Part shown: positions 17,967 through 34,688 of the stretch, one piece after another
How positions within the stretch are numbered: position 1 is the first letter of the stretch
Layout: each line of letters starts with the position of its first letter
Source of the DNA: Gemmatimonadota bacterium
GTDB taxonomy: Bacteria; Gemmatimonadota; Gemmatimonadetes; Gemmatimonadales; Gemmatimonadaceae
Direction of reading: 5' to 3'
Length of the DNA: 64,000 nt
Assembly: GCA_027307165.1 (NCBI GenBank)
Contig: DAHUXM010000026.1
Coordinates: 1-64,000, forward strand
Translations under genes and position numbers: made by a program
The notes under the pieces: generated by a model
The model's input: the letters and a program-made list of their open reading frames with translations, nothing else
Told to the model about the DNA's origin: nothing
Database searches by the model: none

Positions 17967-17997
17967 ATCGATACTTGTCTAAAAGAGAAGTATCGAT
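17967..17997. promoter_or_regulatory. Inverted repeat ATCGATACTT - AAGTATCGAT, probable operator
   Basis: Perfect 10-bp arms at 17967-17976 and 17988-17997 with an 11-base spacer; a related half-site CCGATACT lies at 17952-17959. It is about 60 bases upstream of the membrane protein/XRE pair, suggesting autoregulation by the XRE protein. Confidence 0.55.
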
Positions 17998-18058
17998 TAC
18001 TTATGCTTCCGTAACACAGGCAGTCTCACCGATCCCAACCCACCGGACAGAGTCCACC

Positions 18059-18532: not shown

Positions 18533-18752
18533 CCGATTGCGAAACACGCTCAAGGTTCAGCGAGCGATGCGCGATCTCACCCAAGCCGAACTTGCATCGC
18601 TCGCGGGCGTGACGCGCAGATCGGTGAACGCGATCGAAACGGGACACATGGTACCGTCCGTGCTTCTCGCCCTCAAGCTTGCGCACGCACTCGGAACTTC
18701 GATTGACACGATCTTCAGTCTCGACGACGACAGCGCCCCCGCCGGATTCTAG
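18522..18752 (+). CDS. XRE-family helix-turn-helix regulator
   Basis: A 76-aa protein consisting of one Cro/CI-type HTH: LTQAELASLAGVTRRSVNAIE is the helix 2-3 region, followed by MVPSVLLALKLAHALG. It resembles the short YgzD/YozG type that occurs with four-helix membrane proteins. It overlaps the upstream gene by 11 bases and the convergent exonuclease gene by 4 (shared CTAG). The inverted repeat at 17967-17997 is the obvious candidate target. Confidence 0.9.
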   Translation: MSSDRLRNTLKVQRAMRDLTQAELASLAGVTRRSVNAIETGHMVPSVLLALKLAHALGTSIDTIFSLDDDSAPAGF

Positions 18753-19528: not shown

Positions 19529-19638
19529 GTGGCTGGGATTACCGGGTTGTCTGCATGTGTGGCGTCGACGCTAGCGTCGATAGTACGATCGTCCCGTCAT
19601 CTTCAGTGATGGAGCGCACTCGTCATACTCGAGTATCT

Positions 19639-20214
19639 CTAATGGATCTCGATCAGATATGCCAGCACCGACGCGTCGCTCGAGATCCTGAGCGTAGCGG
19701 CCCCCTCTTCCACAACAAGAAGAGCGTCAAGCGCCATGAGCGCGGCTGTCTGTGCGTTCATTTCGATCTGGAGCGAACCCTCTGCGCAAATCAGCAGCGC
19801 CAATGGTGCCTGCAGTGGGACCTCGACGCTCCCTGCGATGCGCAGTCGTCGCATGGAATGTGTCGAGCGCTCGCGACGGGTCATCACGTTGAGATCGGTG
19901 ACAGGGGCGCCCAGCAGAGTTGCAGCGGCCGCGACATCGCCGGGAAATGAAAGCGGTTCGGAATCACGCGTGAGTTCGAGCGGCGCACTACCCGCGATGG
20001 AGAGGCACAGGCCATCGCCACGCAGCACGGCGAGCGTGCGATCGGTTTGCGGAAAGATGGAAAATGGTCCATCGCCATCGATGCGCGCCATGCTGACGCG
20101 CCAGTCGAAGTCGTCAAGCGTGGCGCCTGTCGGACTGATGGCTACTTCTGCGGTTTCGCCTCGACCGTTCCGCCACCGCATGCGACGGTATTCATTGGAT
20201 TTCAGTATGCGCAT
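19639..20214 (-). CDS. hutD: HutD/Ves family cupin protein
   Basis: 191 aa. The N-terminal MRWRNGRGETAEVAISP and FDWRVSMARIDGDGPFSIFP are diagnostic of HutD/Ves, a bicupin often encoded near histidine-utilisation genes and thought to influence that pathway. No hut genes are nearby, so the role here is open. It follows exonuclease III at about 110 bases in the same direction. Confidence 0.85.
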   Translation of the reverse strand: MRILKSNEYRRMRWRNGRGETAEVAISPTGATLDDFDWRVSMARIDGDGPFSIFPQTDRTLAVLRGDGLCLSIAGSAPLELTRDSEPLSFPGDVAAAATLLGAPVTDLNVMTRRERSTHSMRRLRIAGSVEVPLQAPLALLICAEGSLQIEMNAQTAALMALDALLVVEEGAATLRISSDASVLAYLIEIH

Positions 20215-20266
20215 CGGGGTGGATGTCGATCCTGCCGTCGTCGATGTATGAGTGACGATCGCACGA

Positions 20267-20758
20267 TCACTCAGCGGGCCATGCGCCGAGCATCAGGCGC
20301 ACCGCGATCAGTTGACCGACGTGATAAGCAGTGTGGTCGATCGCGACGAGGATGGTGCGCAGGTATGTCTGTCCATCGCCCCATGGGATCTTCGCGGCGA
20401 GATCGAGTGCGGGACGCATGGCGATGGCCTTGAGTTCCTCCCGGTCGCGTTGCACAGCCGTGATGCTTTCGTCCCACGCGGCGGCAGTTGATGGTGCTGG
20501 ATGGGATGGCCAGTAATCGTCGGGCCACTTTGGCGCGGTGTACGATGCGTTCTGCATGAACGCGATCAGATCGGCCTGCGCCAGTCGAATGTGTTCCACC
20601 AGCTCCCACGCGGAGTGCGGGTAGTGATGAGGCCGGCGACCGCGGAGCTCGGCGCTTAGACCTGCGACCGCGTCATCGAACGTCGCGTGTGCTTCGCGCC
20701 AGTCGACTGATGAAGCAACAATACCGCGCCATGGGGGAGTTGCATGATCTCGTTCCAT
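20267..20758 (-). CDS. DinB-family putative metal-dependent protein
   Basis: 163 aa from the ATG at 20756-20758. A four-helix DinB/YfiT-like bundle is suggested by SAWELVEHIRLAQADLIAFM near the N-terminus and IDHTAYHVGQLIAVRLMLG at the C-terminus, which supply the three His metal ligands. DinB relatives include thiol S-transferases (bacillithiol, mycothiol), but the substrate cannot be inferred. The start was chosen over an in-frame codon 54 bases upstream because the bundle begins just after it. Confidence 0.8.
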   Translation of the reverse strand: MERDHATPPWRGIVASSVDWREAHATFDDAVAGLSAELRGRRPHHYPHSAWELVEHIRLAQADLIAFMQNASYTAPKWPDDYWPSHPAPSTAAAWDESITAVQRDREELKAIAMRPALDLAAKIPWGDGQTYLRTILVAIDHTAYHVGQLIAVRLMLGAWPAE

Positions 20759-20973
20759 TGTTCGATCCAGACCGATGGTTATCAGCTCATCCGCGTCAGC
20801 CGTGCAAGCCACGGCGCCGTGTCCGGGGTGACGGAGCGTTTGCCGCGATACGATATCGCATCGCCGATGCGAATACTGTGTTGACGACGACGTGATCCGG
20901 ACGGTGACTCAAGTCGGTGTCCCGGCGAAATAGCCAACTCTCTCGGTTCGCGAACGTCCGTATCACACTATGT

Positions 20974-20979
20974 ATTATA
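20974..20979 (-). promoter_or_regulatory. Possible -10 box in the DinB upstream region
   Basis: TATAAT on the minus strand within an AT-rich patch of the roughly 300-base gap (20759-21057) upstream of the DinB gene. It is about 215 bases from the start and has no clear -35. The rest of that gap shows nothing recognisable. Confidence 0.2.
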
Positions 20980-21057
20980 ACGGATATCGTTCAGCAGTAT
21001 GACGCGTGGCGCTGCCACTCCCGGCCTGCTCAGGAAAGTGTTCCGACAGTCCCGCTC

Positions 21058-22260
21058 TCAACGGCGCTGTATGTCCGTTATCCTGGAGAGCGTATCGATC
21101 AACGGCGCGGGCCAGAGCGGAAGCGTTGTGTGTTCCATCGAGTTCAACCGCCGCGCGGCGTCGTTGTACTGTGACAGAAAAGCGACCGGACTACAGAGTG
21201 TCCGGATCAGCGCGTCACGTCCTGCCTCACGCTCGACGGTCGATGCCATGAGCCAGCCGACGGTGTACCACGCGCCCTGCACTCCAAAATAGGAGTTGCC
21301 CCGACGTTGAACGGAATCCGCGGTTGCGATCCGGCCGGCGATTACATCCGTAATGAATCCCGACAAGTCGGCGATGTCTGCCGGTGCATGCGCGACATCG
21401 CGATCCCAGCGCGCGCGAATTGAATCCGCATCGGTTGCATGAGGATGTACGTCGGGGCCGCCAGCAGCGGCGAGCATTGCGCGGCCTTCGCCGAACGCCG
21501 TCAGGTACTCGAGCAGCATCCGCTCCGCGGGTGTCGTGTGCGTCGAATCGGCACTCGGTGCGTTGCGACATGCTGCATTCGTGCCGATGTGGTGCAGCTC
21601 GTGAGCGAGTGTGTTATTGAGCTGGGCCGCGGTTTCGTCGGTCTTAACATAGATGAAGATCGACGGCACCGAGTCCCGTCCTGTGAACACGAAGCTGTTG
21701 GTGTGAGGCTTGATCTCGAGATAGAGCCGCGCGCGAATCGGCGTTCCCACCGGCAGGTACGCGAGCGCCATGCGCGCCGCCGAAGTCACATCGATGCGCT
21801 CGAGCTCAGGTACCACGCGCGCTATTGCGGGTAGCCGAGCTGCAACGGAATCCGAGGTAAGGAACTGTGCAAACGACGAATCGGTGAACGCCCTGCCCAT
21901 CGACGCTTCGCGCTCCTTGAGGTGATTGTAACCCTGCGATTCAAAGAGCGCAGACCATTGTCGAGCGGTCGGCATTTCACCGGACGCGGCGCTCCGGATT
22001 ATGCTGAGCGCAGCATCGACCTCATCGGTGACGAGCGTCACGTCCACGCCACGTGGCGCGCGCTCGGTTGCTGGAGAGGCGTTTACGCTGGTACGTGCAC
22101 AGGCAATGAAGGCGACCAGCGATACGAGTTGGGCCGGCCGCGCGACGGCTTTGGCGATGGACCTGGCGTCCTGTGACCTGGTGCAGCGCAGAAATATGGA
22201 CAACGGTGATTTCACTGTATCGTCAGTAATGGAGGATCTGCAGCGGAGCGACGTCAACAC
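21058..22260 (-). CDS. Exported putative Zn-dependent protease (HExxH), DUF5700-like
   Basis: Up to 400 aa from a GTG start. A hydrophobic stretch ending LVSLVAFIACARTS looks like a lipoprotein or signal peptide. The metalloprotease signature is LAHELHHIGTN (HELHH), followed after a Cys-containing insert by YLTAFGEGRAML, whose Glu may be the third metal ligand. The layout is reminiscent of the DUF5700 putative zinc-protease family, but I am not certain of the family. Substrate unknown. The gene is divergent from the M20 amidohydrolase across 146 bases. The start is uncertain because the leader before the hydrophobic stretch is long. Confidence 0.7.
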   Translation of the reverse strand: MLTSLRCRSSITDDTVKSPLSIFLRCTRSQDARSIAKAVARPAQLVSLVAFIACARTSVNASPATERAPRGVDVTLVTDEVDAALSIIRSAASGEMPTARQWSALFESQGYNHLKEREASMGRAFTDSSFAQFLTSDSVAARLPAIARVVPELERIDVTSAARMALAYLPVGTPIRARLYLEIKPHTNSFVFTGRDSVPSIFIYVKTDETAAQLNNTLAHELHHIGTNAACRNAPSADSTHTTPAERMLLEYLTAFGEGRAMLAAAGGPDVHPHATDADSIRARWDRDVAHAPADIADLSGFITDVIAGRIATADSVQRRGNSYFGVQGAWYTVGWLMASTVEREAGRDALIRTLCSPVAFLSQYNDAARRLNSMEHTTLPLWPAPLIDTLSRITDIQRR

Positions 22261-22406
22261 ATTGGATGCTGCGGACCACGAATTGGTTTTGTTCGGGGTC
22301 AGCTCTCGCGTCGCGCGCGGCTAGCGATGGCGCCTTTCGCCGCTATTGACGTCGATGCACGTCTCTGCCACATTCGGGCACGTTTCCCCACTTCCTCCGC
22401 CTGCCA

Positions 22407-23840
22407 ATGCGCATCCTCCCGCTTGCCTCGCTCGCACTGCTCGTCCCATTTGCCCTCAGCGCTCAGGAAACGCCGACCGAGCGGGAATCGGCGCGCGACG
22501 TCGTTCGGCAACTGGACTCGCTGGAGAGCTCGCTCAAACTCCCTGCACTGGTTGCGCGGCTGACCGGTCCGAACGCAGCCCGGGATCAGGTCGTGGCTCG
22601 AGCGAAGCAATTGATGGATACCGATCTGCTTGCGCTCGGCGACGACATCACGCGGCATCCAGAGATCGGCTTCGAGGAGAAGCGCTCAGTGCAGTTGCTA
22701 ACCGACTACCTCAAGCGACACGACTTTACGGTGCAGATGGGAACGCCCGGACTGCCGACCGCGTTCGTAGCGCGCTACACGAAGAGCCATGGTGGACCGA
22801 GTCTGGGTGTGATCGTCGAGTACGACGCACTGCGCGGAACGAAGGGCGCATTTCACGGCGACCAGCACAGCACCCAGGGGCCGATCGGGCTGGCTGCCGC
22901 AATCGCCGTCGCGGAATTTCTTTCGAAAACCGGAACGCCTGGAACGGTGACTGTGTTCGGCACTCCTGGAGAGGAGATGATGCCGCCTAATGCGAAGACT
23001 GTGATGTATGAGTCGAAAGTCTTCGATGGAATGGACATCCTCGTGCGAAGCCACTCGTCCAGCGCCACGACTCGTCCTGCCGCCGGATTCGGCACGTGCT
23101 GCATGAACATCGACGGCGTCAAGTACATATTCAGCGGCGCACCAGCGCACCAGCTCACAGCATGGAATGGGCGCAACGCACTAACTGCTGCGATCCACCT
23201 GTTCAACAACATCGACGCGATGCGCAGCAACATGCGTCCGGAGACGCGAATCCAGGGCGTCATCACCGAAGGTGGTACTGCACCGAACGTCGTACCGGAT
23301 AGAGCCGTCGCCGATTTCTACGTTCGCTATCCGGACGAAGTCTACCTCGCGCAGGTGTCGAAGATCGTCGACGATGCCGCGCGCGCCGCGGCTCTCGCCA
23401 CGGGAACGAAGGTGAAGATCGAGCACTATGGTGCAGATCGCGACGGCATCGGCGTGGGCGCACTCAACGAGCTTGCGTTCGCGTACATGAAGAAGTACGG
23501 CGCCGTTGGTGTCATACCAGAGCCTGGCAAGCCGCAAGGCTATGAAGAGACCGGGAGCGTTTCGAGCGCCATTCCCGGGGTGGGCTTTCAGGCCCGGACG
23601 TCGAACGCGTCAAACCACACGTACGAGATGGAAGCCGACGCACTCACCGACGTCGGCCACAAGGGTTTCGTAGTCGACGCACAGGCGATGTCAGCCCTGT
23701 TGTTCGACTTCGCGACCCATCCGGAATATCGCGCGACCGTGAAGCGCGAGTTCGATACGATTCGCGCGCTCCACGGTGAGTATCTCGATGCCCTTCGGAA
23801 GACTTACGTGGTGCCCAACGTGCCGACACCGGAGCAGTGA
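22407..23840 (+). CDS. Secreted M20D-family amidohydrolase (AbgB-like)
   Basis: 477 aa with signal peptide LVPFALSAQE. DDITRHPEIGFEEKRSVQLL is the M20D N-terminal motif, and FGTPGEEMMPPNAKTVM supplies the catalytic Glu pair. FHGDQHSTQGPIG replaces the usual CGH-type metal site of aminoacylases, as in AbgB-like members. The dimerisation domain begins near YIFSGAPAHQLTAWNGRNA. The family hydrolyses N-acyl or aryl-amino acids such as p-aminobenzoyl-glutamate; export suggests a scavenging role. The end is only 34 bases from the convergent sialidase-like gene. Confidence 0.85.
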   Translation: MRILPLASLALLVPFALSAQETPTERESARDVVRQLDSLESSLKLPALVARLTGPNAARDQVVARAKQLMDTDLLALGDDITRHPEIGFEEKRSVQLLTDYLKRHDFTVQMGTPGLPTAFVARYTKSHGGPSLGVIVEYDALRGTKGAFHGDQHSTQGPIGLAAAIAVAEFLSKTGTPGTVTVFGTPGEEMMPPNAKTVMYESKVFDGMDILVRSHSSSATTRPAAGFGTCCMNIDGVKYIFSGAPAHQLTAWNGRNALTAAIHLFNNIDAMRSNMRPETRIQGVITEGGTAPNVVPDRAVADFYVRYPDEVYLAQVSKIVDDAARAAALATGTKVKIEHYGADRDGIGVGALNELAFAYMKKYGAVGVIPEPGKPQGYEETGSVSSAIPGVGFQARTSNASNHTYEMEADALTDVGHKGFVVDAQAMSALLFDFATHPEYRATVKREFDTIRALHGEYLDALRKTYVVPNVPTPEQ

Positions 23841-23874
23841 GTGTCAGGCACGATGCACGATCCGACACCTTCGC

Positions 23875-25260
23875 TTACTTCACTCCGTGAAAATCTGCAG
23901 TCCCCACCCTGAAGATCGTCGGTGTGCGCCTCACCGTCGGCGACGGTCGATTCGCATTCCCATCCACCTGATATCCTTCCGGTGCAGCCTCGGCCCATAC
24001 TCCGTACACGCGTCCGTCGTACGCGACCATCCACATGTAATCGCCGAGGCTCGCGTTCTCGCCGGCGAATGAGCGGTCCGACCAGTCGTAGTTCCTGAAA
24101 GTCTTTCCGCCGTCGGTCGAGCGCGCGAGCGTGAGGCGGGTGTTCCTGTTATTGGGATCGTCGCGACGGTCGTAGAACTGCACGTACACGTCACCGTTGA
24201 CGGGATCGACCGCCATCCACTGGAAGAACTGATCGTTTCCGTCGTGAATCGGATCGTTGTTCACGCGCATCGCTGGCGTCCAGGTTTTGCCGTGATCGGA
24301 CGAGCGTGAGATGAATACATCCACGTCGCCATTTCTGAAATCACTCCACGTCACGTACAGCTCGCCCGACTTGCGGTCCAGACTGATCTGCGGAAAGCCC
24401 ATCGTTCTCACGACGCCCGGAACACCGCCCGTCCCGCCGAAGTACGGCGGTCCAACATCGATGATCGGTCTGGACGGAGCGAAGGTCGCGCCTCCGTCCT
24501 TCGACACAGCGAGCGTGATGTTGAGTCCCTGATTCCAGACGATGTACACCGTTCCGTCGGGCGCGACGGTTCCGATGATTCCGACCACCGATCCGTTGTC
24601 GTCGCGCGGATAACCAGCGATCGTGCTGATGCGCACCGGTTTGGACCAGGTGGCTCCCTGATCTGTCGAGCGCGAGTACAGAACTATGGAATTCTCGATA
24701 CCCCACTCGATCCACGCGTAGTAGATATTGCCGCGATGCGGACTCTTCTCGTTCTGGTCGGCCCAGATACGCGGCATGTCCTCGAACTTGATGTTGCTCT
24801 CGTGTCCCGTCCACGTCTTCACGCCCACTGGCTTCTTCCACGTCTTTCCGCCGTCGGGTGAGCGCACTACCCAGACGCCATTTTCGGTGGCGCCGTGTGC
24901 CCAGTAGGACGCGGTTCCGAGCTTACGGAATGCGAGATATGAGAAGTAGAGATTGCCCTTGTCGTCGAAGGTCATCGACGGATCGCCGCCAGTCGTACCG
25001 CCTTCGCCGGCGGGATTCACCGTGGTGAAGGTGCGGGCTGAATCGGTGGAATAGGCCAGCAGCCCGCTGCCGGCTGTGACGGCTATCTGGTTGGGGCTGT
25101 AGTGATTGATGGCGATCGAGGGTTCACTTCCGGTCTTGCCCGTGGGTGTAACGGTGACGATTCGGGCACCGGGTGCGCGTGGGAGCGACGATTGAGCTGT
25201 AGCACCAACGGGTGCGATCAGCAGTGCGACGGCGATGATACGGGAGGCGGTCACGGTCAT
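23875..25260 (-). CDS. Secreted sialidase/BNR-repeat protein
   Basis: 461 aa, signal peptide LIAPVGATAQ. Asp-box repeats include STDSARTFTTV, SPDGGKTWKKP, STDQGATWSKP, SKDGGATFAPS, SSDHGKTWTPA and STDGGKTFRNY, indicating a six-bladed sialidase-type propeller. The Arg triad of true sialidases cannot be assigned with confidence, so enzymatic function is open. It lies 82 bases downstream of the oxidase operon but has its own promoter-like motif (25290-25306), so it is probably transcribed separately. Confidence 0.85.
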   Translation of the reverse strand: MTVTASRIIAVALLIAPVGATAQSSLPRAPGARIVTVTPTGKTGSEPSIAINHYSPNQIAVTAGSGLLAYSTDSARTFTTVNPAGEGGTTGGDPSMTFDDKGNLYFSYLAFRKLGTASYWAHGATENGVWVVRSPDGGKTWKKPVGVKTWTGHESNIKFEDMPRIWADQNEKSPHRGNIYYAWIEWGIENSIVLYSRSTDQGATWSKPVRISTIAGYPRDDNGSVVGIIGTVAPDGTVYIVWNQGLNITLAVSKDGGATFAPSRPIIDVGPPYFGGTGGVPGVVRTMGFPQISLDRKSGELYVTWSDFRNGDVDVFISRSSDHGKTWTPAMRVNNDPIHDGNDQFFQWMAVDPVNGDVYVQFYDRRDDPNNRNTRLTLARSTDGGKTFRNYDWSDRSFAGENASLGDYMWMVAYDGRVYGVWAEAAPEGYQVDGNANRPSPTVRRTPTIFRVGTADFHGVK

Positions 25261-25289
25261 CTATCGATTCCTCGTTTGGATCCAGGTAT

Positions 25290-25306
25290 GGATAAAATAT
25301 ACGATT
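25290..25306 (-). promoter_or_regulatory. Promoter-like motif shared with the Xaa-Pro peptidase gene
   Basis: The minus strand reads AATCGTATATTTTATCC, 16 of 17 bases identical to the motif at 507-523. It lies 30 bases upstream of the sialidase-like ATG. Confidence 0.45.
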
Positions 25307-25341
25307 TATCACACCCGGCATGCCAACGTATCGCGCCGTCA

Positions 25342-25803
25342 TCAACATGGCTTGACTACCACGATCGCGGCCACGTCCACGAGAATCGCCAGCAGGAATA
25401 CCGCGCTCGTCATCACGCTCGACACCGCCATGAACCGCGTGCGCCCCTCACCGGTGTCGAGTGCCCAGTGCGTATTACCGCTGATTTCCCCGCTCGTGCG
25501 TCGCCAGTTTCGCATGGACACCAGGCCCGCTGCAACGCCGACGATCACGGCGGCACACGAGATGATGATCAGCGACACATACAACGTCCTGGAGCCCATT
25601 GTTGGAATCGACAGCGGCACCATCCGGGGGTAACATGCCTGTGCCGCGATAGCGTAGATCGCGATCGTGAACACACTCCACGCAATCGGGCCACCGCCCA
25701 ACCCGAACCACAACGACGCAAGGCCCACGGTACCGCGCGATGGCGATGGATGGTCCACGCTGCTCCCACCGAGCGTCGGCGCTGTATTGTTCCGCGTACT
25801 CAT
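25342..25803 (-). CDS. Small membrane protein, last gene of the oxidase operon
   Basis: 153 aa from the ATG at 25801-25803, which overlaps the stop of the fused oxidase gene by four bases. Three or four transmembrane helices are visible: ASLWFGLGGGPIAWSVFTIA, LYVSLIIISCAAVIVGVAAG and SSVMTSAVFLLAILVDVAAI. I recognise no family. By position it may be an accessory oxidase subunit or assembly factor, like the small CtaF-type subunits of other caa3 operons. Confidence 0.7.
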   Translation of the reverse strand: MSTRNNTAPTLGGSSVDHPSPSRGTVGLASLWFGLGGGPIAWSVFTIAIYAIAAQACYPRMVPLSIPTMGSRTLYVSLIIISCAAVIVGVAAGLVSMRNWRRTSGEISGNTHWALDTGEGRTRFMAVSSVMTSAVFLLAILVDVAAIVVVKPC

Positions 25804-28304
25804 CGTACGTGCGGTAGGACGTAAAGCGACGCGAAGACGCAGATCCAGACCACATCGACGAAGTGCCAGTACATCGTCACGTTCGCGATGGCGAGCCATC
25901 CGCTGTTTCCTCCGTGCGCGGCGCGGCGCGATCCACGCACCAGGACAGTAACGAGCATTACCAACCCGGCCAGGACGTGCGCGCCGTGGAAGCCCGTGAT
26001 CGTATAGAATAGTGAGCCATACGCGTCCGTCGTCGGCCTCACGGTCGCGAGCCTGCTGTGAAACTCCGCCGCCTGGATCACGAGAAATACAATACCGAGC
26101 AACACTGTGACGAGCATGGCCCCGCGCAGGCGTGACGGGCGTCCATTCTCACCCTGTCGACGACCGTACTGAAGCACGATGCTACTCGCGATGAGAATGA
26201 TCGTGTTCGGCAGCGCAAGACGAAGATCGGGACTCGCGCCTGGCCACGGGTTGATCGAGGACGCCGAGAGATAGGCGTAGCTTGCGAGCAGATATGCGAA
26301 GAACGCAGCTTCGGTGGCGATGACGCACGCCATTCCCCACCACGCCACGGAGTGATATCCCTCGCCGTCTACCGGAAGCATTCCGAACAGCGTCTCCACG
26401 GTCTCGTTCTGCCTCGCTCCGAACCGTGGACTGAACCACGCTATTACGGAAAGGGTTGCGATCAGCAGCCCCGCCGCCGTCCAGGCAGTGGACGGCCACA
26501 CGAGCCCTAAGCACGTCAACGTCAGCGATATCGCAAGCATGAATGGCCAGATGCTGTCGGACGGCATCTTCATCACCACATCCGGCTCGGCGTCCAGTGG
26601 AGTTATCCCGAACGTCTCGCGTCCGCTGTCGAGCAATGGCCCGTTGCCCAGCACGCTGTGGCCGCCCCCCTCGTCGGGGAGCCGATCCTCCCACAAGGGG
26701 TGCCGACTCGCGACCACCGGAATCGTCGCGAAGTTGTACGGTGGTGGCGGTGAGCTCACCGACCATTCCAGAGTCGGCGCATCCCACGGATTGTTTCCGG
26801 CCAGAACGCCATGTTTCAGCGAACGAATTGCGTTGATGATGAAGAGCAGTACTCCGATTGCAAAGAGATACGCGCCGATCGTGACAACGAGATTCGTCGT
26901 ACTCCAGCCGAGCCCGGAATCATAGGTGTAGATGCGTCGCGGCATTCCCATTAGTCCGAGCCAGTGCATCGGAAAGAACAGAACATTCACGCCAACGAAC
27001 ATCGTCCAGAAATTCCAGCGCCCCAGTCGCTCATCCAGCATCCTGCCGGTCATCTTCGGGAACCAATAGTAGAATCCGGCGAATACAGGAAACACGTTGA
27101 TGCCGACGAGCACGTAATGCAGGTGCGCGACTATGAAATACGTGTCGGTGAGTTGCCAGTCGAACGGGACAGCCGCTGTCATCACGCCGGAAACACCGCC
27201 GATGGTGAACAGCAGTATGAATCCAACCATGAACAGGAACGCGGTGGTTCGGACGGGACGGCCGTACCATATGGTCGCGAGCCACGCAAACACTCCAACC
27301 GCGCTGGGTATCGCGATGATCATGCTCGCACCGCCGAAGAACGCGAGTCCCAGCGGCGGAATTCCGGTCGCGAACATGTGGTGCAGCCATACTCCGAATC
27401 CCAGCACGCCCGTAGCCATGGTGGCGAGCGCGACAAAAGTGTAACCCACCAGTGGCCGCCGGCAGAACGTAGGGAGCGCATCCGACACGATTCCCATCGC
27501 CGGCAACACAATGACGTACACCCAGGGGTGTCCGAAAATCCAGAACAGATGCTGCCAGAGCAGCGGCTTGCCACCCGACGTGGGATCGAAGAAGTGTGTG
27601 CCGTAGCGTCGGTCGAGATACAGGAAAATCAGAGCCACCGATAGCGACGGCAACGCGAACAGATTGACGATCGACGCGGTGAGCGTTCCCCACACAATGA
27701 TGGGCAACCTGTTGAGAGACATTCCCGGTGCACGCGTCTTGAACAGCGTGACGATGAAATTTGCCGATCCCACGGTCGTGGATATGCCGAGAAGCAACAG
27801 CCCCAGAGCGTAGAAGTCGATATTGCGACCGGGATCGAAAGCGCGCTCCGCGTACGGCACGTAGTCGAACCAGCCCGCATTTGGCATCTGGCCGTTGAAC
27901 ACGCTCGAATAAATGAACAGCCCGGCACCGACGAACAGCCAGTAGCTCAACGCGTTCAATCGCGGGAATGCCATGTCGCGCGAGCCGAGCATCAGCGGCC
28001 ACAGGTAGTTGCTGAACCCCGACAGAATTGGTGCGGCGTAGAGAAAGATCATCGTCACGCCGTGCACGGTGAACAGCTGGTTGTACTGTTCCGGTGTCAG
28101 CAGATGCAGGTTAGCGGCTGCCAGCTGCGCCCGCATCGCGGCGGCCTCCAGTCCGCCGAGCAGGAGAAAGACGAATGCGGTCACCAGATAGCGCTTGCCT
28201 ATCGTCTTGTGATCGACCGATGTCAGGAACCCGCGGATTCCGGGCGGTGTTTCCCAGGTTGCCTGGAGAGAAGTGTTCACGGCCGGTTCGAGCGTTGCTG
28301 CCAC
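25800..28304 (-). CDS. Heme-copper oxidase subunits I and III fused (CtaD-CtaE)
   Basis: 834 aa, GTG start with AGGAG six bases upstream. Subunit I covers about residues 1-560. Heme a ligands are His81 and His396, heme a3 ligand His394, and CuB ligands His259 and His308/His309. Tyr263 of the His-Tyr crosslink and Arg-Arg of GMPRRIYTY are also present. Subunit III covers about residues 600-834 (FYTITGFHGAHVLAG, YWHFVDVVW). It reduces O2 to water in the membrane. Unusually, the Glu of GHPEVY is Trp261 (GHPWVYVIVLP) and the K-channel Lys of PTGIKVF is Gly337 (PSAVGVF), while the D-channel entrance Asp110 (SRDMAFPR) remains. Both substitutions lie in gap-free, otherwise conserved segments. Confidence 0.95.
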   Translation of the reverse strand: MAATLEPAVNTSLQATWETPPGIRGFLTSVDHKTIGKRYLVTAFVFLLLGGLEAAAMRAQLAAANLHLLTPEQYNQLFTVHGVTMIFLYAAPILSGFSNYLWPLMLGSRDMAFPRLNALSYWLFVGAGLFIYSSVFNGQMPNAGWFDYVPYAERAFDPGRNIDFYALGLLLLGISTTVGSANFIVTLFKTRAPGMSLNRLPIIVWGTLTASIVNLFALPSLSVALIFLYLDRRYGTHFFDPTSGGKPLLWQHLFWIFGHPWVYVIVLPAMGIVSDALPTFCRRPLVGYTFVALATMATGVLGFGVWLHHMFATGIPPLGLAFFGGASMIIAIPSAVGVFAWLATIWYGRPVRTTAFLFMVGFILLFTIGGVSGVMTAAVPFDWQLTDTYFIVAHLHYVLVGINVFPVFAGFYYWFPKMTGRMLDERLGRWNFWTMFVGVNVLFFPMHWLGLMGMPRRIYTYDSGLGWSTTNLVVTIGAYLFAIGVLLFIINAIRSLKHGVLAGNNPWDAPTLEWSVSSPPPPYNFATIPVVASRHPLWEDRLPDEGGGHSVLGNGPLLDSGRETFGITPLDAEPDVVMKMPSDSIWPFMLAISLTLTCLGLVWPSTAWTAAGLLIATLSVIAWFSPRFGARQNETVETLFGMLPVDGEGYHSVAWWGMACVIATEAAFFAYLLASYAYLSASSINPWPGASPDLRLALPNTIILIASSIVLQYGRRQGENGRPSRLRGAMLVTVLLGIVFLVIQAAEFHSRLATVRPTTDAYGSLFYTITGFHGAHVLAGLVMLVTVLVRGSRRAAHGGNSGWLAIANVTMYWHFVDVVWICVFASLYVLPHVR

Positions 28305-28323
28305 GTTGTGCTCCTTGCGCTCG

Positions 28324-29352
28324 TCAGTGAAGCGTCGTGAGATAAGAGACGACGGCGGCGACGTCGTCGTGGCGGAGGTCCATCCTGGGCATGAGCACGC
28401 CCGGCTTCATCGCCTGTGCATCAGATACCCATCGCATCAGATTTGCCGGCGTGTTGTCGATCAGTCCCGCGCCAATGGTCTGGCGGCTCGCGAGGTGAGT
28501 GAGATCCGGCCCGAGACGCCCCAGTGCGTTCGTCCCGCGAACCGCGTGGCATCCGCTGCACGTCGAAACGAAGATGGTCTCGCCACGAAGCACGTTCGGC
28601 GGCAGCGCTGCATTCGGCGGTAGCGAATTGGCGCTGGTGGCGCGCTGCGCCGCCGCCCATTTGTCGTACATATTCTGGGGTTCCGCGGTGATCGCGAACG
28701 CCATGTGCGCGTGTTGCAGACCGCAATACTCTGCGCAGGCGCCTCGATACGTTCCGCTGTGATCGGCTCGCATCCAGGTCACGTTGATCTGTCCGGGGAT
28801 GACATCCATCTTGCCAAACAGCTCCGGAACCCAGAACGAATGAATCACATCCTGCGACTGGACTCGAATTTCCACCGGGACTCCGACCGGTACATGAATC
28901 TCGTTCGCCGTAACGAATGCATCGCTCGGCACCGAGTCTTCCATGCGCACTTCCCACCACCATTGGTGCGCGGTTATGTCCATCGTGATCTTCGGCGGTG
29001 ATGGCGCGTGCGCCGAGCTGGCGAGCGATACGACCGTTGCACTGAACGCTCCCAGCAGGATCACCACGGTGATCGCGAGACCAACGTAGATCCAGGACAG
29101 GCCGGATACCAATCTGACGCGATACGTTCCGTCGGACGCATTCCGTGTAGTGGTGCTGTCCGGATCCTCGCGCTTTCGCAGCACCGCAACCACGAGCAGA
29201 ATCGCTATGACTACTGTTACAGCGACTGCAATGATCGTGAGCGCCCAGCCGAGCATCGCCTCGCCGCCGGCTGGAGCGCCGGCGGGGCGCATGTAACTCG
29301 GCGCATGCGAGTCGAGCCGCGTTTGCGCAATGATGTATGGGAGTGACATCAC
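28324..29352 (-). CDS. coxB: Cytochrome c oxidase subunit II with fused cytochrome c (caa3 type)
   Basis: 342 aa. Two transmembrane helices at about residues 35-57 and 84-110 are followed by the cupredoxin domain. CuA ligands are His171, Cys206, Cys210, His214 and Met217 (CAEYCGLQHAHM), with Glu208 between the cysteines. The aromatic electron-entry patch is HQWWWEV. A C-terminal class I cytochrome c has CSGCH (Cys265, Cys268, His269) and a probable axial Met in LMPRMDL. It passes electrons from the preceding cytochrome to subunit I. Spacing is 2 bases to the upstream gene and 19 to the fused subunit I-III gene. Confidence 0.95.
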   Translation of the reverse strand: MMSLPYIIAQTRLDSHAPSYMRPAGAPAGGEAMLGWALTIIAVAVTVVIAILLVVAVLRKREDPDSTTTRNASDGTYRVRLVSGLSWIYVGLAITVVILLGAFSATVVSLASSAHAPSPPKITMDITAHQWWWEVRMEDSVPSDAFVTANEIHVPVGVPVEIRVQSQDVIHSFWVPELFGKMDVIPGQINVTWMRADHSGTYRGACAEYCGLQHAHMAFAITAEPQNMYDKWAAAQRATSANSLPPNAALPPNVLRGETIFVSTCSGCHAVRGTNALGRLGPDLTHLASRQTIGAGLIDNTPANLMRWVSDAQAMKPGVLMPRMDLRHDDVAAVVSYLTTLH

Positions 29353-29354
29353 GT

Positions 29355-29939
29355 CTACGGTTCGCTCTGGCGGCCCTTCAACACGCCGGTTGCGGTGTCC
29401 AGTGTGGTGCCAAGGTTACCCTGCTTCCCCTGCTCGGCCAGCGCCGCTGGAAAACTGCCGCCAAGACTCTGAACGTACGCCGTGAGCTTCCATAATTCGT
29501 CGCTCGTAAGCATCGCTCCCCACGCCGGCATTCCCTGCGGCCGTCCTTCACTAATCGACTTGTATATCTCGGCAGGTGATCCACCATAACGCCAGTACGT
29601 ATCGGTGAGATCCGGACCCATGCCGCCTCTGGCGTCGTAACCGTGACACGCAACACAGTTCATGCGAATGAAAAGCTCACCTCCGGCTTCGATTGCACCC
29701 GTGTTGCCCTCGTAGGGGTTCTTGATGGAGGTGAGAAGCGTGTTGCGCGTGGATCCCGCGATGTCACCAAGTGCAACACGTGCGAGAGTGGAATCCTTTG
29801 GCAGCGGAATGCCACCAGTGGATCCTTCCCGCAGCAGTTCAGGCTGCCCCTTGCACGCCTGAACGCTGCCGATCAACAACGCAATCGCCGCGGCGCGAAA
29901 ACATGGCGCCTTGCGAAAGGCGAACGCATGGATAGTCAT
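29355..29939 (-). CDS. Membrane-anchored cytochrome c (lipoprotein), partner of the PQQ dehydrogenase
   Basis: 194 aa. The leader ends IGSVQAC, a lipobox with Cys29 as lipid site. One heme c site, MNCVACHGYDARGG (Cys95, Cys98, His99), is present with a probable axial Met in PQGMPAWG. The start overlaps the stop of the PQQ dehydrogenase gene by one base (ATG within CATCA on the plus strand), so the two are translationally coupled. It most likely accepts electrons from PQQH2 and feeds the CuA/cytochrome c subunit encoded next. Confidence 0.9.
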   Translation of the reverse strand: MTIHAFAFRKAPCFRAAAIALLIGSVQACKGQPELLREGSTGGIPLPKDSTLARVALGDIAGSTRNTLLTSIKNPYEGNTGAIEAGGELFIRMNCVACHGYDARGGMGPDLTDTYWRYGGSPAEIYKSISEGRPQGMPAWGAMLTSDELWKLTAYVQSLGGSFPAALAEQGKQGNLGTTLDTATGVLKGRQSEP

Positions 29940-31885
29940 CAGCGCTTCTCCTTTGCTTGGGCGCCATTACTGGATGCGCCACTCTGTGACCCCTGAACGC
30001 CCTGCGCCGGTACGGACGAGTCGAGCGCGAACGTGTAGAGCGTTCCACCGCGCGCAGGAAATCCTGGCATTGCCTTTGTAACCATCGCGGCGCCGCCAAC
30101 ACCCGCCAGTACTGATACGTATTGATGTCCGTCCGGTCCGCGGAACGTCATCGGTGCACCAATGATTCCCGAGCCGAGCTTCTGGGACCAGAGAATCTTT
30201 CCAGTTCGCGCGTTGACAGCGCGAAACCAGCCGTCCACTGTACCGTAGAACGCGACGTCGCCACCGGTGACGAGAACGCCACTGTACACCAGAAATTTCT
30301 CCGGAATGCCCCAGACCTTCTTGCCGGTGGATGCGTTCCAGGCGATGAACTCGCCGTAGTTGCCGCCGGGCCCCACGTGGCGCGTCATGTCGGCTCCCCA
30401 GTACGGAGTGCCCGCGATGTAGCTCACTTCGCGTCCCTTGTAATCCATGCAGATGTTCTGCACTGGCACGTAGAACAGACCCGTGCGCGGCGAGAACGCT
30501 GCCGGTTGCTCGTCCTTGACGCCGATATCCGCGGGACAGATGTCGCGCACCCAATGTCCCGGCACCTCTGTCTTCTTTTCCGGAACAACGATTGGCATCT
30601 TCGTCACTGAATCGATTCCGGACGCCCAGTTCTCGTGACCGAACGGACTTACCATCAGTACTTCGCCGGTCGCGCGGTCGATCGTGTACGCGAAACCGTT
30701 ACGGTTGAATTGCACCATCACCTTCCGCTGCTTTCCGTTGATCGGAAGGTTTACGAGAATGTTCTCGTTCACGCCGTCGTAGTCCCACTCGTTGTGCGGA
30801 GTGAACACGAACGCCCATTTCGCCATACCGGTATCCGGATCGCGGGCAAACACGCCACTGGTCCAGAGATTGAGCCCGGGGCGCTGCTGCGCGTTCCATG
30901 GTCCCGTGTTGCTCGTGCCGGCGTAGATGAGATTGAGGTCCGGGTCGTAGGTGATCCATCCCCACACCGCGCCGGCGCCGTTCTTCCACGCTCCCGCGGG
31001 CCACGTAGTCTCTCCCAGATTTTTCCCCTGCATCCACGAGTAGAAGGGCTTGAAGTCGGGGCCGATCTTGACGAGCGAATCCGGGCCCGTGCTCGTCGCC
31101 TGCCAGTCGATCTTTCCCGTCTTGAGATCGAGCGCGGTCAGCGAGCCAAGCACACCCATCTCTCCACCGCTGTTGCCAACAAGCACCTTGTCCTTCACGA
31201 TCACCGGCGCCATCGTCATCGTCACACCCTGCGTCACGTCGTACACCTGCGTGCGCCACAATTCCTTTCCCGTCGCGGCGTCCACGGCAACGGTGTGACC
31301 GTCCAGCAGATTGTAGATGAGCTTTCCGTCGGCGAGCTGCCATCCGCGATTCACCACGTCGCAGCACGCCTTTCCAATCGCGATCGGCGAGGGGTTGGGT
31401 CTGTACGTCCACTTGATCGGTGCGCCGGGCTTGGTGAGGTCGAGTGCGTAGGCGATGTCCGGAAAGGGCGTGACGAGATACATCGTGTTGTTCGCGACGA
31501 GCGGCGTCCCTTCATGACCGTGAAGCACCCCATCATTGAAGCTCCACGCAATTCGCAACGATGAGACGTTGCTGGTATCTATCTCGGCGAGTGGACTGTA
31601 TCGCGTATTGGCGTAGTCCCGCCCCTGCGTCGTCCAGTCGCCGTCCGCCGGAATTCCCCAGCCCGGACCGGTTGGAGCTGTTGCGCCAGTCACGTTCTCA
31701 CCCGCGGGAGTACTTGTGCTGGTTGTTGTGGCGGCCGATACACCCGATGAATCACCCGCGTCATTCGCGCGGCGACCAGGATACTCATGAGTAGTGCAGG
31801 CGGTGACAGCAACGCCCGCGAACGTCAGAGAGATCAGCGAGCGGAGCGCAATGCGAATCGAGGGATTGTCCACTGGCTGCATCAC
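29939..31885 (-). CDS. Lanthanide-type PQQ-dependent alcohol dehydrogenase, lipoprotein
   Basis: 648 aa eight-bladed quinoprotein. Lipobox FAGVAVTAC gives lipidated Cys30. PQQ-site features: vicinal Cys174-Cys175 (GKACCDVVNRG), Glu242 (SGGEMGVLG), Asn326 (GTSNTGPWN) and catalytic Asp368. Asp370, two residues on (NEWDYDGVNE), is the extra metal ligand that marks lanthanide-dependent XoxF/PedH-type enzymes, where Ca-dependent MxaF has Ala. It oxidises a primary alcohol to aldehyde (or further) outside the inner membrane. The alcohol cannot be predicted. Start ATGA overlaps the upstream stop; the cytochrome c gene follows directly. No PQQ biosynthesis genes are in the window. Confidence 0.92.
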   Translation of the reverse strand: MMQPVDNPSIRIALRSLISLTFAGVAVTACTTHEYPGRRANDAGDSSGVSAATTTSTSTPAGENVTGATAPTGPGWGIPADGDWTTQGRDYANTRYSPLAEIDTSNVSSLRIAWSFNDGVLHGHEGTPLVANNTMYLVTPFPDIAYALDLTKPGAPIKWTYRPNPSPIAIGKACCDVVNRGWQLADGKLIYNLLDGHTVAVDAATGKELWRTQVYDVTQGVTMTMAPVIVKDKVLVGNSGGEMGVLGSLTALDLKTGKIDWQATSTGPDSLVKIGPDFKPFYSWMQGKNLGETTWPAGAWKNGAGAVWGWITYDPDLNLIYAGTSNTGPWNAQQRPGLNLWTSGVFARDPDTGMAKWAFVFTPHNEWDYDGVNENILVNLPINGKQRKVMVQFNRNGFAYTIDRATGEVLMVSPFGHENWASGIDSVTKMPIVVPEKKTEVPGHWVRDICPADIGVKDEQPAAFSPRTGLFYVPVQNICMDYKGREVSYIAGTPYWGADMTRHVGPGGNYGEFIAWNASTGKKVWGIPEKFLVYSGVLVTGGDVAFYGTVDGWFRAVNARTGKILWSQKLGSGIIGAPMTFRGPDGHQYVSVLAGVGGAAMVTKAMPGFPARGGTLYTFALDSSVPAQGVQGSQSGASSNGAQAKEKR

Positions 31886-32817
31886 CTCAGAGGGAGAAGG
31901 TAAAGCTTGTTGTCCTGCATCGACGTGATCGCCAGTTTGTCGTGCGTCGTATCGTAGGCAACACCTGCTGGGGAGGTGATGCCAGTCAGCACGGCCTGAA
32001 CCTTTCCGTCCGGCTCGATCCTGTAAACCGTCCTTGCGCCCCAGCTGGTCACGATGTACGAGCCGCCCGGTAGCTGTCGAAGACCATCGACCTGTTTGTC
32101 CGGAAGCGTTGCGAACACGCGGTGCGTGCCCGACTTGGAGATCGCTTCGACGCTGTGTCCCTTGAACGTTGCGTAAAGAATTCCGCTGTCGCTGACGATC
32201 AGTCCATCGGGACCCATCAGACTGGGACTCTTCGCGATAGTCGCGGTACGGCCGTCGTGATATAGCCGGTAGATGGCGTCATGATCTGCGCTGTCGGGTT
32301 TTCCCGCGTCGGGACCTGTGTCGGTGACGTAAACGCTTCCATCGGCGGCGAACGCGACGTCGTTCATCAACTGACCTGGCACCATGCGAACGCCCAGCGC
32401 CGCGCCTGTGCGACGGTCGAAGAAACGCACTGCCCCCAGGTCGGCTACAGCGAGCGTGTCTCCGTGAATGGCGAGGCCTTTCGGACCATCGAGCCGCGTA
32501 CCTGCGTGACTTCCGTCGATCCACTTGAGCTGGAGGATCTTGCCGTCGGGCGCGACTCGGCTGATGAATCCGTTCGCATCGCGCGCACGCGCGCCTCCGT
32601 TGATGTTGGAAACCAGGTACACATTCGATTGCGGATCGTATACCAGGTTCTCCGGTGACGAGAATCCAACACCGGCGATGGTGACGACGCTGCTGCTGTT
32701 GACGCTAACCGGCTGTTGGGCACGAGCCGTTACGGGTCCGAATGCAAGCAGGATTGCGGTGGCGATTGCAGGCGCTGCGGTGATGCGCGGAGCGACAGGG
32801 TATGAGTGAATTGGCAT
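31882..32817 (-). CDS. Exported SMP-30/NHL-like beta-propeller
   Basis: 311 aa with signal peptide FGPVTARAQ. Propeller repeats such as GFSSPENLVYDPQSNVYLVS, DGPKGLAIHGDTLAVADLG and ITSPAGVAYDTTHDKLAITS resemble SMP-30/gluconolactonase and NHL proteins. Co-transcribed just ahead of the PQQ dehydrogenase (4-base overlap), it could hydrolyse a lactone formed by alcohol or aldose oxidation, or act as a periplasmic binding or maturation partner. Lactonase activity is inference only. Confidence 0.8.
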   Translation of the reverse strand: MPIHSYPVAPRITAAPAIATAILLAFGPVTARAQQPVSVNSSSVVTIAGVGFSSPENLVYDPQSNVYLVSNINGGARARDANGFISRVAPDGKILQLKWIDGSHAGTRLDGPKGLAIHGDTLAVADLGAVRFFDRRTGAALGVRMVPGQLMNDVAFAADGSVYVTDTGPDAGKPDSADHDAIYRLYHDGRTATIAKSPSLMGPDGLIVSDSGILYATFKGHSVEAISKSGTHRVFATLPDKQVDGLRQLPGGSYIVTSWGARTVYRIEPDGKVQAVLTGITSPAGVAYDTTHDKLAITSMQDNKLYLLPLR

Positions 32818-32820
32818 TGT

Positions 32821-33606
32821 CTATTTCGATGCGAGGGGGAATGCGAGCCCGACGATCAGCGACGCCGAGTGAACGCCTGTCAGGAACACGCGCTCGCCTT
32901 TGGGAACCTCGTCGCCCGCTTTCGGCAGGCCGGTTGCTACGTAGTCCACCAGCGTGGAAAGCACGACATCGTGCATGTAGGTGTGCGTCGGCAAGTCTGC
33001 GAACAAGGACCAGTTCGCGGCGAGCCCGAGATCCAGCTTGTGCGTGTACGCCCCCGAGTCATGCGGCCGCGCTGCGCTGCTGTACAGATCACCGATGTGC
33101 GCGTCCAGGCCGAGCCACCCGCTCGTGTCCTTCGCGTCGACGATGCCGAGTGAGATGCCAGCGCTGGCGGTCGGTGCGTTTGCGCGCACCTTGTCGCCGA
33201 TTTCGCTCGCGCCGTACAGGGTGAACGGATTCCGCCTTTCGCTGGCGTTCGGGAGCCACTGTACGCTGCCGTAAAGTGAGAGCCGCTCGATCGGCGTCGA
33301 TGCGCCCACCGCGAAAATGAGCTCGAGATTGGTCGTGGACGGCAGCCGCTGCACCGCGCCGGTCGCGAGTGTGCGCGTGGTCGGGTGCGAGAAGAGATGG
33401 TTCTCGATCATGGCCGGCTCGACGGAGATCGTCGGCTTGCAGATGAAACCGCAACTGTTCTGCGCCGCCGCCGGCCGTGCGACGATCAGCGCCGCGCTCC
33501 CGACCAGCAGGACCGACAAATGCCGCAACGCGAGACGCGTTTCCGTACGGCGCAAGGTTGCTTCTCCCCCTTCCGGGTCGAAATCCGGTTGTGCGAGCGA
33601 TGGCAT
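32821..33606 (-). CDS. Outer-membrane-like protein heading the PQQ/oxidase operon
   Basis: About 261 aa from the ATG at 33604-33606. After a long polar leader there is a signal peptide (LLVGSAALIVARPAAAQ), then CGFICKPTISVEPAM. Alternating amphipathic strands rich in aromatic residues (RLSLYGSVQWLPN, TSGWLGLDAHIGDLY, HKLDLGLAANWSLFADL) end in ASLIVGLAFPLASK. This suggests an outer-membrane beta-barrel, perhaps a channel for the alcohol substrate. No family is recognised. It is first in the operon, 3 bases before the propeller gene, with the GntR regulator divergent. Confidence 0.65.
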   Translation of the reverse strand: MPSLAQPDFDPEGGEATLRRTETRLALRHLSVLLVGSAALIVARPAAAQNSCGFICKPTISVEPAMIENHLFSHPTTRTLATGAVQRLPSTTNLELIFAVGASTPIERLSLYGSVQWLPNASERRNPFTLYGASEIGDKVRANAPTASAGISLGIVDAKDTSGWLGLDAHIGDLYSSAARPHDSGAYTHKLDLGLAANWSLFADLPTHTYMHDVVLSTLVDYVATGLPKAGDEVPKGERVFLTGVHSASLIVGLAFPLASK

Positions 33607-33755: not shown

Positions 33756-34688
33756 ATGCGACGAAGAGACGACGTTCTGGCCAGGCTCAGAGAGCGCATC
33801 ATGAACGGAGTCCACTTCGGACGCATCGCTAACGGGGACCGCCTACCCAGCGCGAGGCGCCTCTCGGCGGAGTTGGACGCTGATCCGCGCGTGGTCACTG
33901 CCGCGTATCGGGCTCTCGAGCGCGAGGGGATGGCCGCACGGCGTCCTGGCTCGCGAGGTTACTTCGCGTCGATTCGGAGGGCACCAGGCGGTCGGCCGGT
34001 TCCGACCGCGGAGTGGCTGCTGCCGGTCCTTGCAGACAGCATCGGACACGGCGTCCCCGTGAGACAGTTCATCGACTACGCTCGCAGCAGTCTGGAGTCG
34101 GTGCACTTTCACGTCGCCTGCCTCGAATGCAACGACGATCAGCTGCGATGGTTGTGCGGGGAGCTGGAAGACGATTACGGTTTTGTGAGTCACGCCGTCA
34201 ATACCCAAATTCTGACTGGCGAGCCGGGCGACGATCCCGAGATCGAGCGAGCGGAAATACTCGTCACCACCTCGGCACACGCTCTCGAGGCGCATGTGCT
34301 CGGAGCGAGACTGCAGAAGCCCGTGGTGCTGGTCACGTTGAAGCCGGAGCTCATCGCCGAAGTGACGGAGCTGCTGAGCAAAGGGCCGCTTTACTTTCTT
34401 TGCACCGACCAGCGTTTTGTCGGCAAATTGACGGAGCTCTACGACGGCCTGCCCAACACATTCAACATCCGCACGGTGCTGCTGGGCCGGGACGACCCGC
34501 AGGACATCCCGAGCGGAGCGCCAGTGTGGGTGATGCGGCGCGCGAGCGAACAACTTGGCGGCGTACCATCCCATATTTGCCCGCTGAATACAGCGCGAAT
34601 ATTCTCCCGCGAAACGCGAATGGAGCTTCTGTCGTACCTGGTTCGCGCGAACCTCACTGCCTCCGTCGCACCGCGGCCGGCCGATTAG
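33756..34688 (+). CDS. GntR-type winged-helix regulator with unassigned C-terminal domain
   Basis: 310 aa. Residues about 5-75 form a GntR winged helix: LRERIMNGVHFGRIANGDRL, PSARRLSAELDADPRVVTAA, YRALEREGMAARRPGSRGYF. The remaining 230 residues (CDDQLRWL-like helices, EILVTTSAHALEAHVLGARL, GPLYFLCTDQRFVGKL) do not show FCD, UTRA or MocR aminotransferase signatures; they may form a Rossmann-like ligand-binding domain. Divergent from the PQQ/oxidase operon across 150 bases, it is the likely regulator of that operon and of itself. Confidence 0.8.
   Translation: MRRRDDVLARLRERIMNGVHFGRIANGDRLPSARRLSAELDADPRVVTAAYRALEREGMAARRPGSRGYFASIRRAPGGRPVPTAEWLLPVLADSIGHGVPVRQFIDYARSSLESVHFHVACLECNDDQLRWLCGELEDDYGFVSHAVNTQILTGEPGDDPEIERAEILVTTSAHALEAHVLGARLQKPVVLVTLKPELIAEVTELLSKGPLYFLCTDQRFVGKLTELYDGLPNTFNIRTVLLGRDDPQDIPSGAPVWVMRRASEQLGGVPSHICPLNTARIFSRETRMELLSYLVRANLTASVAPRPAD

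Follow-up and report, generated by a model that had tools for sequence, protein, structure and literature searches.

Organisation of the locus

The window, i.e. the whole stretch of 64 000 nucleotides analysed here (contig DAHUXM010000026.1 of assembly GCA_027307165.1), comes from a member of the Gemmatimonadota, a soil-type bacterium. Between positions 25342 and 33606 the ORF list and the translations reveal seven tightly packed leftward genes, every one on the minus strand (Table 1). From the coordinates, a gap of 3 nucleotides separates the OMP-like and SMP-30-like genes, the latter overlaps the alcohol dehydrogenase (ADH) gene by 4, and the ADH gene overlaps that of cytochrome c by 1; then come a gap of 2 before coxB, another of 19 before the coxA-coxC fusion and an overlap of 4 between the fusion and the gene for a small membrane protein. 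Coordinates, translations and domain matches thus confirm the positions, strand, gene order and overlaps or small gaps of the seven ORFs reported in a preliminary description of this DNA. We infer that the operon is read as one transcript. Promoter and terminator scans gave 2 promoter-like sites vs 2.9 expected and 12 terminator-like sites vs 6.8 (sd 2.7) expected, counts that were rejected as evidence for operon borders.

Table 1. Features of the dehydrogenase-oxidase operon and of its divergent neighbour
Feature	Position	Strand	Evidence
GntR-type regulator, divergent	33756..34688	+	Pfam GntR
OMP-like first gene, small secreted protein	32821..33606	-	ORF; beta-rich by prediction
SMP-30/gluconolactonase-like beta-propeller	31882..32817	-	Pfam SGL 42.6 bits; N-terminus signal peptide-like
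XoxF-like PQQ alcohol dehydrogenase (P0005)	29939..31885	-	TIGR03075 over cut-off; metal ligands
Mono-heme cytochrome c (CVACH)	29355..29939	-	Pfam Cytochrome_CBB3/Cytochrom_C
CoxB, caa3-type subunit II (CuA site; cytochrome c at the C-terminus)	28324..29352	-	TIGR02866 over cut-off
CoxA-CoxC fusion (subunits I+III)	25800..28304	-	TIGR02891 705 bits, over cut-off; COX3
Trp261 codon, place of D-channel glutamate (E286, Rhodobacter numbering)	27522..27524	-	alignment, group consensus
Gly337 codon, place of K-channel lysine (K362, Rhodobacter numbering)	27294..27296	-	alignment, group consensus
Small membrane protein, 3' of oxidase	25342..25803	-	ORF; ATG at 25803

Neither the OMP-like first gene nor the small membrane protein matches any Pfam or NCBIfam family. 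The former, for which an alternative upstream GTG start is possible at 33699, has homologues of 42-53% identity at the equivalent position in loci L039-L041, but its designation as an outer-membrane protein is a guess; a fold search was dropped, the AlphaFold (AF2) model being too poor (mean pLDDT 39). An SMP-30-like gene occupies the equivalent position in L038-L041, and the place of the small membrane protein after CoxC is kept in eight relatives, with homologues of 28-45% identity. The divergent GntR-type protein, found in the equivalent divergent position in L038 (93%) and L039 (39%), is a candidate regulator of the operon.

The alcohol dehydrogenase and its cofactor

P0005 matches the PQQ_enz_alc_DH family TIGR03075 with 593.6 bits (curated cut-off 480.05) and possesses CysCys174-175. 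The Asp368-x-Asp370 lanthanide signature announced in the preliminary description is correct in P0005 numbering and, together with Glu242 and Asn326, constitutes the complete set of metal ligands found in XoxF; MxaF has Ala in place of Asp370, the extra Asp of the D-x-D motif. These residues suggest that P0005 uses a lanthanide. The best solved structure is 4mae, the XoxF of Methylacidiphilum fumariolicum, with identical metal ligands and a core identity of 54%. However, P0005 differs by its lipobox and its link with an oxidase, and it lies outside the branch of 4mae: in a tree that contained no named XoxF3 reference sequence, it falls in a branch of 9 rows (SH-aLRT 99) that includes neither 4mae nor the 6oc5/6dam/4tqo group. 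The lipobox, VTAC, was detected by pattern match near the N-terminus and would tether the enzyme to the membrane. As a marker of oxidase linkage it was dropped, since it poorly separates linked (31/64) from unlinked (16/52) ADH loci.

A search of the genome, whose assembly is 98% complete, gave no match to PqqC, and matches to PqqB and PqqE below cut-off only. The absence of PqqC was not relied on by itself, because no control genome was positive; it is backed by PqqB and PqqE and by 60 relatives, among which PqqB and PqqC were over cut-off in 8. With no PQQ synthesis gene over the family cut-off, the cell would have to obtain PQQ externally or make it by some unrecognised route. It could be argued that the dehydrogenase stays an empty quinoprotein for want of PQQ in this host, and that the operon is a relic, given that all three Pqq proteins lack an over-cut-off match and that P0005 also matches the PQQ-less homologue family TIGR04528. 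But this last match is below cut-off, and at 319 bits it is far weaker than that of the methanol/ethanol PQQ model (593 bits); moreover, the ADH ligands are all intact and the ADH gene is under purifying selection (dN/dS ~0.08, window vs L038). Genomes having XoxF without PQQ synthesis were also noted, and uptake suggested, by Voutsinos et al. (PMC10875860). We consider a relic very improbable.

The claim that the operon encodes an entire respiratory chain is too strong: the genome lacks over-cut-off PQQ synthesis genes, and the assembly factor CtaG was not found in the operon, its two copies being located elsewhere in the genome. XoxJ was not found within the operon either.

Cytochromes and oxidase

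The operon cytochrome c, presumably the electron acceptor of the dehydrogenase, resembles cytochrome cL in part (TIGR03872, 48 bits, below cut-off). CoxB combines Pfam COX2 and cytochrome c domains, with CAEYCGLQHAHM as its CuA motif and CSGCH as its heme motif. The fusion is a single 834-aa protein with COX1 (516 bits) and COX3 domains. For both proteins the best solved structure is the caa3 oxidase of Thermus thermophilus (2yev_B and 2yev_A, respectively), which likewise has subunits I and III fused and a cytochrome c fused to subunit II. The heme and CuB histidines, the cross-link tyrosine, the CuA site and the cytochrome c of CoxB are those of an A-family (caa3) enzyme, which also retains D110, N117 and the polar residues of helix IV. 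Where Thermus has Y-S-H-P and PTGVK, the window CoxA has F-G-H-P-W (motif FGHPWVY, around Trp261) and a glycine instead of the lysine. Of the A1 and A2 marks, it contains neither the K-channel lysine, nor the D-channel glutamate, nor the Tyr-Ser motif, the channel residues being assigned from alignment alone. The gene is under purifying selection (dN/dS ~0.05, window vs L038) and its active site is intact. The sampled housekeeping CoxA proteins of the order are canonical, the genome's own, on another contig (C23), included.

In a quick tree, with SH-aLRT as its only support, the linked oxidases fall in one CoxA clade (75 rows, support 100). The K-channel lysine is absent from all 75 rows, whereas the canonical sister clade (26 rows) has K/E/D throughout. 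Trp, and once Phe, replaces the D-channel glutamate in the subclade of the window; in the other subclade it is the aspartate at the D-channel entrance that is mostly lost. Over the clade as a whole, the K channel appears to be lost throughout and the D channel to be altered, at either end, in most members. Unusual proton uptake is to be expected, because the clade has no K-channel lysine and the window branch has Trp or Phe for the D-channel glutamate: judging from these residues, the route should differ from that of textbook A-type oxidases, and the window enzyme may pump fewer protons or none.

Is this nevertheless a normal, fully pumping A-family enzyme, using an alternative proton path, with the substitutions compensated elsewhere? 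The residues retained in the window, from the active-site histidines and the cross-link tyrosine to D110, N117 and the polar residues of helix IV, would agree with it, and for family A oxidases of archaea a repeated loss of the K channel has been discussed (PMC8239418). However, when columns specific to one group were sought (at least 88% in the W group, <12% in the canonical one), no acidic residue newly conserved in the W group came to light. In A2 oxidases a Tyr-Ser pair replaces the D-channel glutamate; F-G-H-P-W is not Y-S-H-P, and this known replacement is therefore missing. We would give full pumping a little less than an even chance. At this point we may tentatively propose, with somewhat greater doubt, that the clade, in the sampled cases mostly found beside XoxF-type ADH, has abandoned the canonical proton channels and acts as an electron sink that pumps no protons or is coupled in another way, periplasmic alcohol oxidation then serving speed or safety instead of energy.

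Association of dehydrogenase and oxidase across genomes

The check for a conserved neighbourhood was run: the ADH/oxidase order recurs in relatives and, as ADH-cytochrome c-CoxB-CoxA-CoxC, in four phyla, which excludes a chance arrangement. CoxA lies within 5 kb at 70 of the 95 assessable ADH loci, a few genomes being sampled twice, and is lacking within this distance at the other 25. The ADH and CoxA identity matrices are correlated (r 0.46; 0/2000 permutations), which may be partly due to shared ancestry, and the nearest ADH neighbour has the same CoxA type in 55 cases out of 56. A search for FGHPWVY in 201 genomes of the order found 19 sites in 17 of them (reversed control: 0), with ADH nearby at 13 of the 17 assessable sites. 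Mesorhizobium ciceri WSM1271, Mesorhizobium sp. INR15 and Methylocella tundrae are cultivable organisms that carry a linked coxA.

Members of the clade also occur beside a PQQ glucose dehydrogenase, a sorbosone dehydrogenase family gene or FdhF/YdeP oxidoreductases; some are on plasmids beside other cytochromes or oxidoreductases, and some have no obvious donor gene nearby. ADH linkage was consequently rejected as the cause of channel loss, since the whole clade is affected, the members beside other donors included. In a genome of the same genus (G001) the oxidase is present, yet the ADH search gave no match. The variety of neighbours, and the second, canonical CoxA of the genome, could mean that the oxidase is a mobile general-purpose spare module that came to lodge beside the dehydrogenase, ADH donating to the general cytochrome c pool. 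But a spare module would be at odds with an order conserved in four phyla, with the co-variation of ADH and CoxA types and with a cytochrome c encoded between them; also, when coordinates were compared by eye in 60 relatives, the canonical CoxA matches never shared a neighbourhood with the close ADH matches, being on a different contig or at a distance of tens to hundreds of kilobases. We find this alternative unlikely.

Since the order is conserved between phyla and the ADH and oxidase types co-vary, a route from ADH through cytochrome c to the oxidase appears to be the best reading of the sequences. A periplasmic XoxF-type PQQ alcohol dehydrogenase, probably lanthanide-using, would oxidise an alcohol, with PQQ supplied externally or by a pathway that escapes recognition; electrons would pass to the adjacent cytochrome c, then to the cytochrome c/CuA subunit, and from there to the heme-copper centre of the A-family, caa3-like oxidase, where O2 would be reduced. 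We give a probability of roughly 0.72 to this explanation as a whole, in which the block represents, in Gemmatimonadota, an already known type of ADH-cytochrome c-caa3-like oxidase unit. The proposal that the oxidase is hard-wired to one ADH goes too far: the conserved order and the co-variation of types support it in part, and it is weakened by the other donors and by the oxidase of G001.

Relation to described systems

The preliminary description knew of no described operon with this content; published cases do exist. According to Degli Esposti et al. (2014; PMC4013037), a PQQ dehydrogenase akin to methanol dehydrogenase is frequent in 'COX operon type a-II', a cytochrome c oxidase operon. 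The window too has a PQQ dehydrogenase inside a COX operon, but its CoxA is fused to CoxC, a fusion assigned in that work to caa3 oxidases and COX operon type a, and not to Cox4/CtaF as in type a-II. Clusters of XoxF3 with CoxI/II/III, CtaG and CytC in Gemmatimonadetes and Acidobacteria were described by Voutsinos et al. (2024; PMC10875860). These clusters share with the window the phylum, the lanthanide ligands, an XoxF-type dehydrogenase, CoxI, CoxII, CoxIII, a cytochrome c and a small hypothetical protein; the window operon differs in that no XoxJ or CtaG was found in it, in the SMP-30-like and OMP-like genes placed in front and in the CoxA-CoxC fusion. The article states that there are no biochemical data for XoxF3; the passages of it consulted here make no mention of the proton channels of the oxidase.

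Operons in which a periplasmic PQQ dehydrogenase comes with an oxidase of its own are therefore known, and we found no study of the proton coupling of such oxidases. Our literature search, which covered few subscription papers, did not find channel loss in dehydrogenase-linked oxidases, which is no proof that it is undescribed; in these terms, the apparently K-channel-less CoxA clade linked to PQQ dehydrogenases has no earlier description that we could find. If linked oxidases in several phyla do work without both proton-entry residues, the energy yields assumed for the oxidation of methanol and alcohols by soil bacteria may be incorrect; the oxidases themselves would be natural experiments on heme-copper function without the K and D channel residues. 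Annotated copies of the ADH-oxidase unit are also present on rhizobial plasmids.

Organization of the operon and earlier descriptions

Seven open reading frames, every one on the minus strand, were found in the order given in the preliminary description, and the coordinates bear out their tight spacing: no gap exceeds 19 bases, and the overlaps are 1–4 bases long, if the ATG at 25803 is taken as the start of the small membrane protein. Family profile searches placed the alcohol dehydrogenase (ADH) in the PQQ methanol/ethanol dehydrogenase family (593.6 bits, for a cut-off of 480). They identified the gene that follows it as a cytochrome c, CoxB as a CuA protein with a C-terminal cytochrome c, CoxA as fused to CoxC, and the SMP-30-like product as an SGL propeller; no family was matched by the first gene of the operon or by the last, small membrane gene. 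The closest solved structure is 4mae, the XoxF of Methylacidiphilum, for the ADH, and 2yev, the Thermus caa3 oxidase, for both oxidase proteins. A gene for a BNR-repeat protein (a sialidase-like propeller) lies on the same strand, 81 bases downstream of the operon; among the four related loci L038–L041, it is present in L038 only.

Coordinates of the features discussed
Feature	Record	Positions	Strand
Operon	window	25342–33606	−
XoxF-like PQQ alcohol dehydrogenase	window	29939–31885	−
CoxA–CoxC fusion	window	25800–28304	−
BNR-repeat gene	window	23875–25260	−
pqqABCDE to second cytochrome c	L231 (Mesorhizobium sp. INR15 plasmid)	14236–25719	

The preliminary description knew of no described operon of this content, but such operons have been published. 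The ‘COX operon type a-II’ contains PQQ dehydrogenases related to methanol dehydrogenase (PMC4013037), for Acidobacteria and Gemmatimonadetes PMC10875860 reports XoxF3 clusters with CoxI, CoxII, CoxIII, CtaG and CytC, and rhizobial plasmids carry annotated examples. Because such published clusters and plasmid copies exist, the operon of the window is of a kind already known. Nor is the chain ‘entire’, as had been claimed: it is not self-sufficient as encoded, because no PQQ synthesis genes above the cut-off were found in this genome, which is 98% complete. The copy on the plasmid of Mesorhizobium sp. INR15 has pqqABCDE directly in front. There, one same-strand run continues with a XoxF-like dehydrogenase, cytochrome c, coxB, coxA, coxC, ctaG and a second cytochrome c, uniting cofactor synthesis with the respiratory chain.

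Proton-channel residues of the oxidase

Alignment of the ADH-linked CoxA proteins revealed the K-channel lysine (K362 in Rhodobacter numbering) in none of them. In a quick tree of 116 CoxA rows with a single support measure, these proteins fall within a clade of 75 rows (support 100), all 75 of which have Q, A, S, T, G or N at that position. The D channel is altered in two ways. In a subclade of 25 rows that includes the window, the glutamate (E286) is replaced by Trp (once by Phe). The remaining 50 rows keep an acidic residue at the glutamate position (E in 49, D in 1), and in 40 of them the entrance aspartate is replaced by N, S, E, A or H. The 26 canonical CoxA rows from the same order, the second CoxA of this genome among them, have K, E and D throughout. 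We found no published account of this loss of channel residues in the open-access collection searched, and an earlier description may exist elsewhere. Another CoxA group in the order (L222–L226), which the CoxA tree shows to be unrelated to the ADH-linked clade, has V, A, L or I in place of the K-channel lysine and keeps the aspartate and glutamate.

The alignment shows intact catalytic histidines and an intact cross-link tyrosine, and dN/dS of the CoxA–CoxC gene is about 0.05 between the window and L038; for these reasons the gene is not decaying. With channel residues replaced in a gene that is not decaying, proton uptake should differ from that of textbook A-type oxidases. Proton pumping may also be reduced or lost.

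Linkage of dehydrogenase and oxidase

A conserved neighbourhood, as expected of such an operon, was looked for and found. Among loci taken around the ADH from 60 relatives, the order ADH, cytochrome c, CoxB, CoxA, CoxC, small membrane protein is found repeatedly; the outer-membrane-like and SMP-30-like genes in front are common to L038–L041. A scan of named genomes brought 80 loci, from Gemmatimonadota, Acidobacteriota, Verrucomicrobiota and Proteobacteria, many with the same core. Of 95 loci that could be assessed, 70 have CoxA at most 5 kb from the ADH, the collections overlapping in that certain genomes contribute loci to two of them. The DNA pattern for FGHPWVY, the motif of the Trp-type CoxA of the window, matched 19 sites spread over 17 of the 201 genomes of the order, where the reversed control gave 0 sites. 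Two of the 19 sites lie at contig ends; at the 17 assessable ones, the ADH is near in 13 cases and absent nearby in 4.

Identity matrices of ADH and CoxA are correlated (r 0.46; 0 of 2000 permutations), and nearest ADH neighbours have the same CoxA type in 55 of 56 cases. This correlation may stem in part from shared ancestry. At two loci (L245, L056), Trp-type and Gln-type CoxA are both found near a single ADH cluster, which suggests that oxidases were recruited more than once.

The proposal that the oxidase is hard-wired to one ADH is only partly supported: linkage is frequent (the 70 loci) but not exclusive. Clade members on plasmids adjoin other donors, and a genome of the same genus (G001) has a CoxA of the clade although no match was obtained when it was searched for the ADH. 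On a Pseudosulfitobacter plasmid (L204), a membrane-bound dehydrogenase of the PQQ glucose/quinate/shikimate family is encoded a few genes upstream of a same-clade oxidase, a possible sugar-to-oxygen counterpart.

The dehydrogenase

The lanthanide signature Asp368-x-Asp370 noticed earlier was upheld by alignment with XoxF structures, in which the metal ligands Glu242, Asn326, Asp368 and Asp370 and the Cys-Cys pair 174–175 all find their equivalents; MxaF, in contrast, has Ala where the ADH and XoxF carry the second Asp. In a quick ADH tree, the window and L039, L040, L041, L084, L085, L083, L115 and L231 form a branch of 9 rows (SH-aLRT 99), separate from the 4mae branch and from the 6oc5/6dam/4tqo group, these four references including no named XoxF3. 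A lipobox (VTAC) ahead of the mature protein, present also in most of the Gemmatimonadota relatives listed, suggests that the ADH may be tethered to the membrane.

PQQ-propeller proteins adjoin the same oxidase type in L197, on a plasmid of Roseomonas marmotae, and in L148; having neither the metal ligands nor the Cys-Cys pair, they resemble ‘empty’ quinoproteins.
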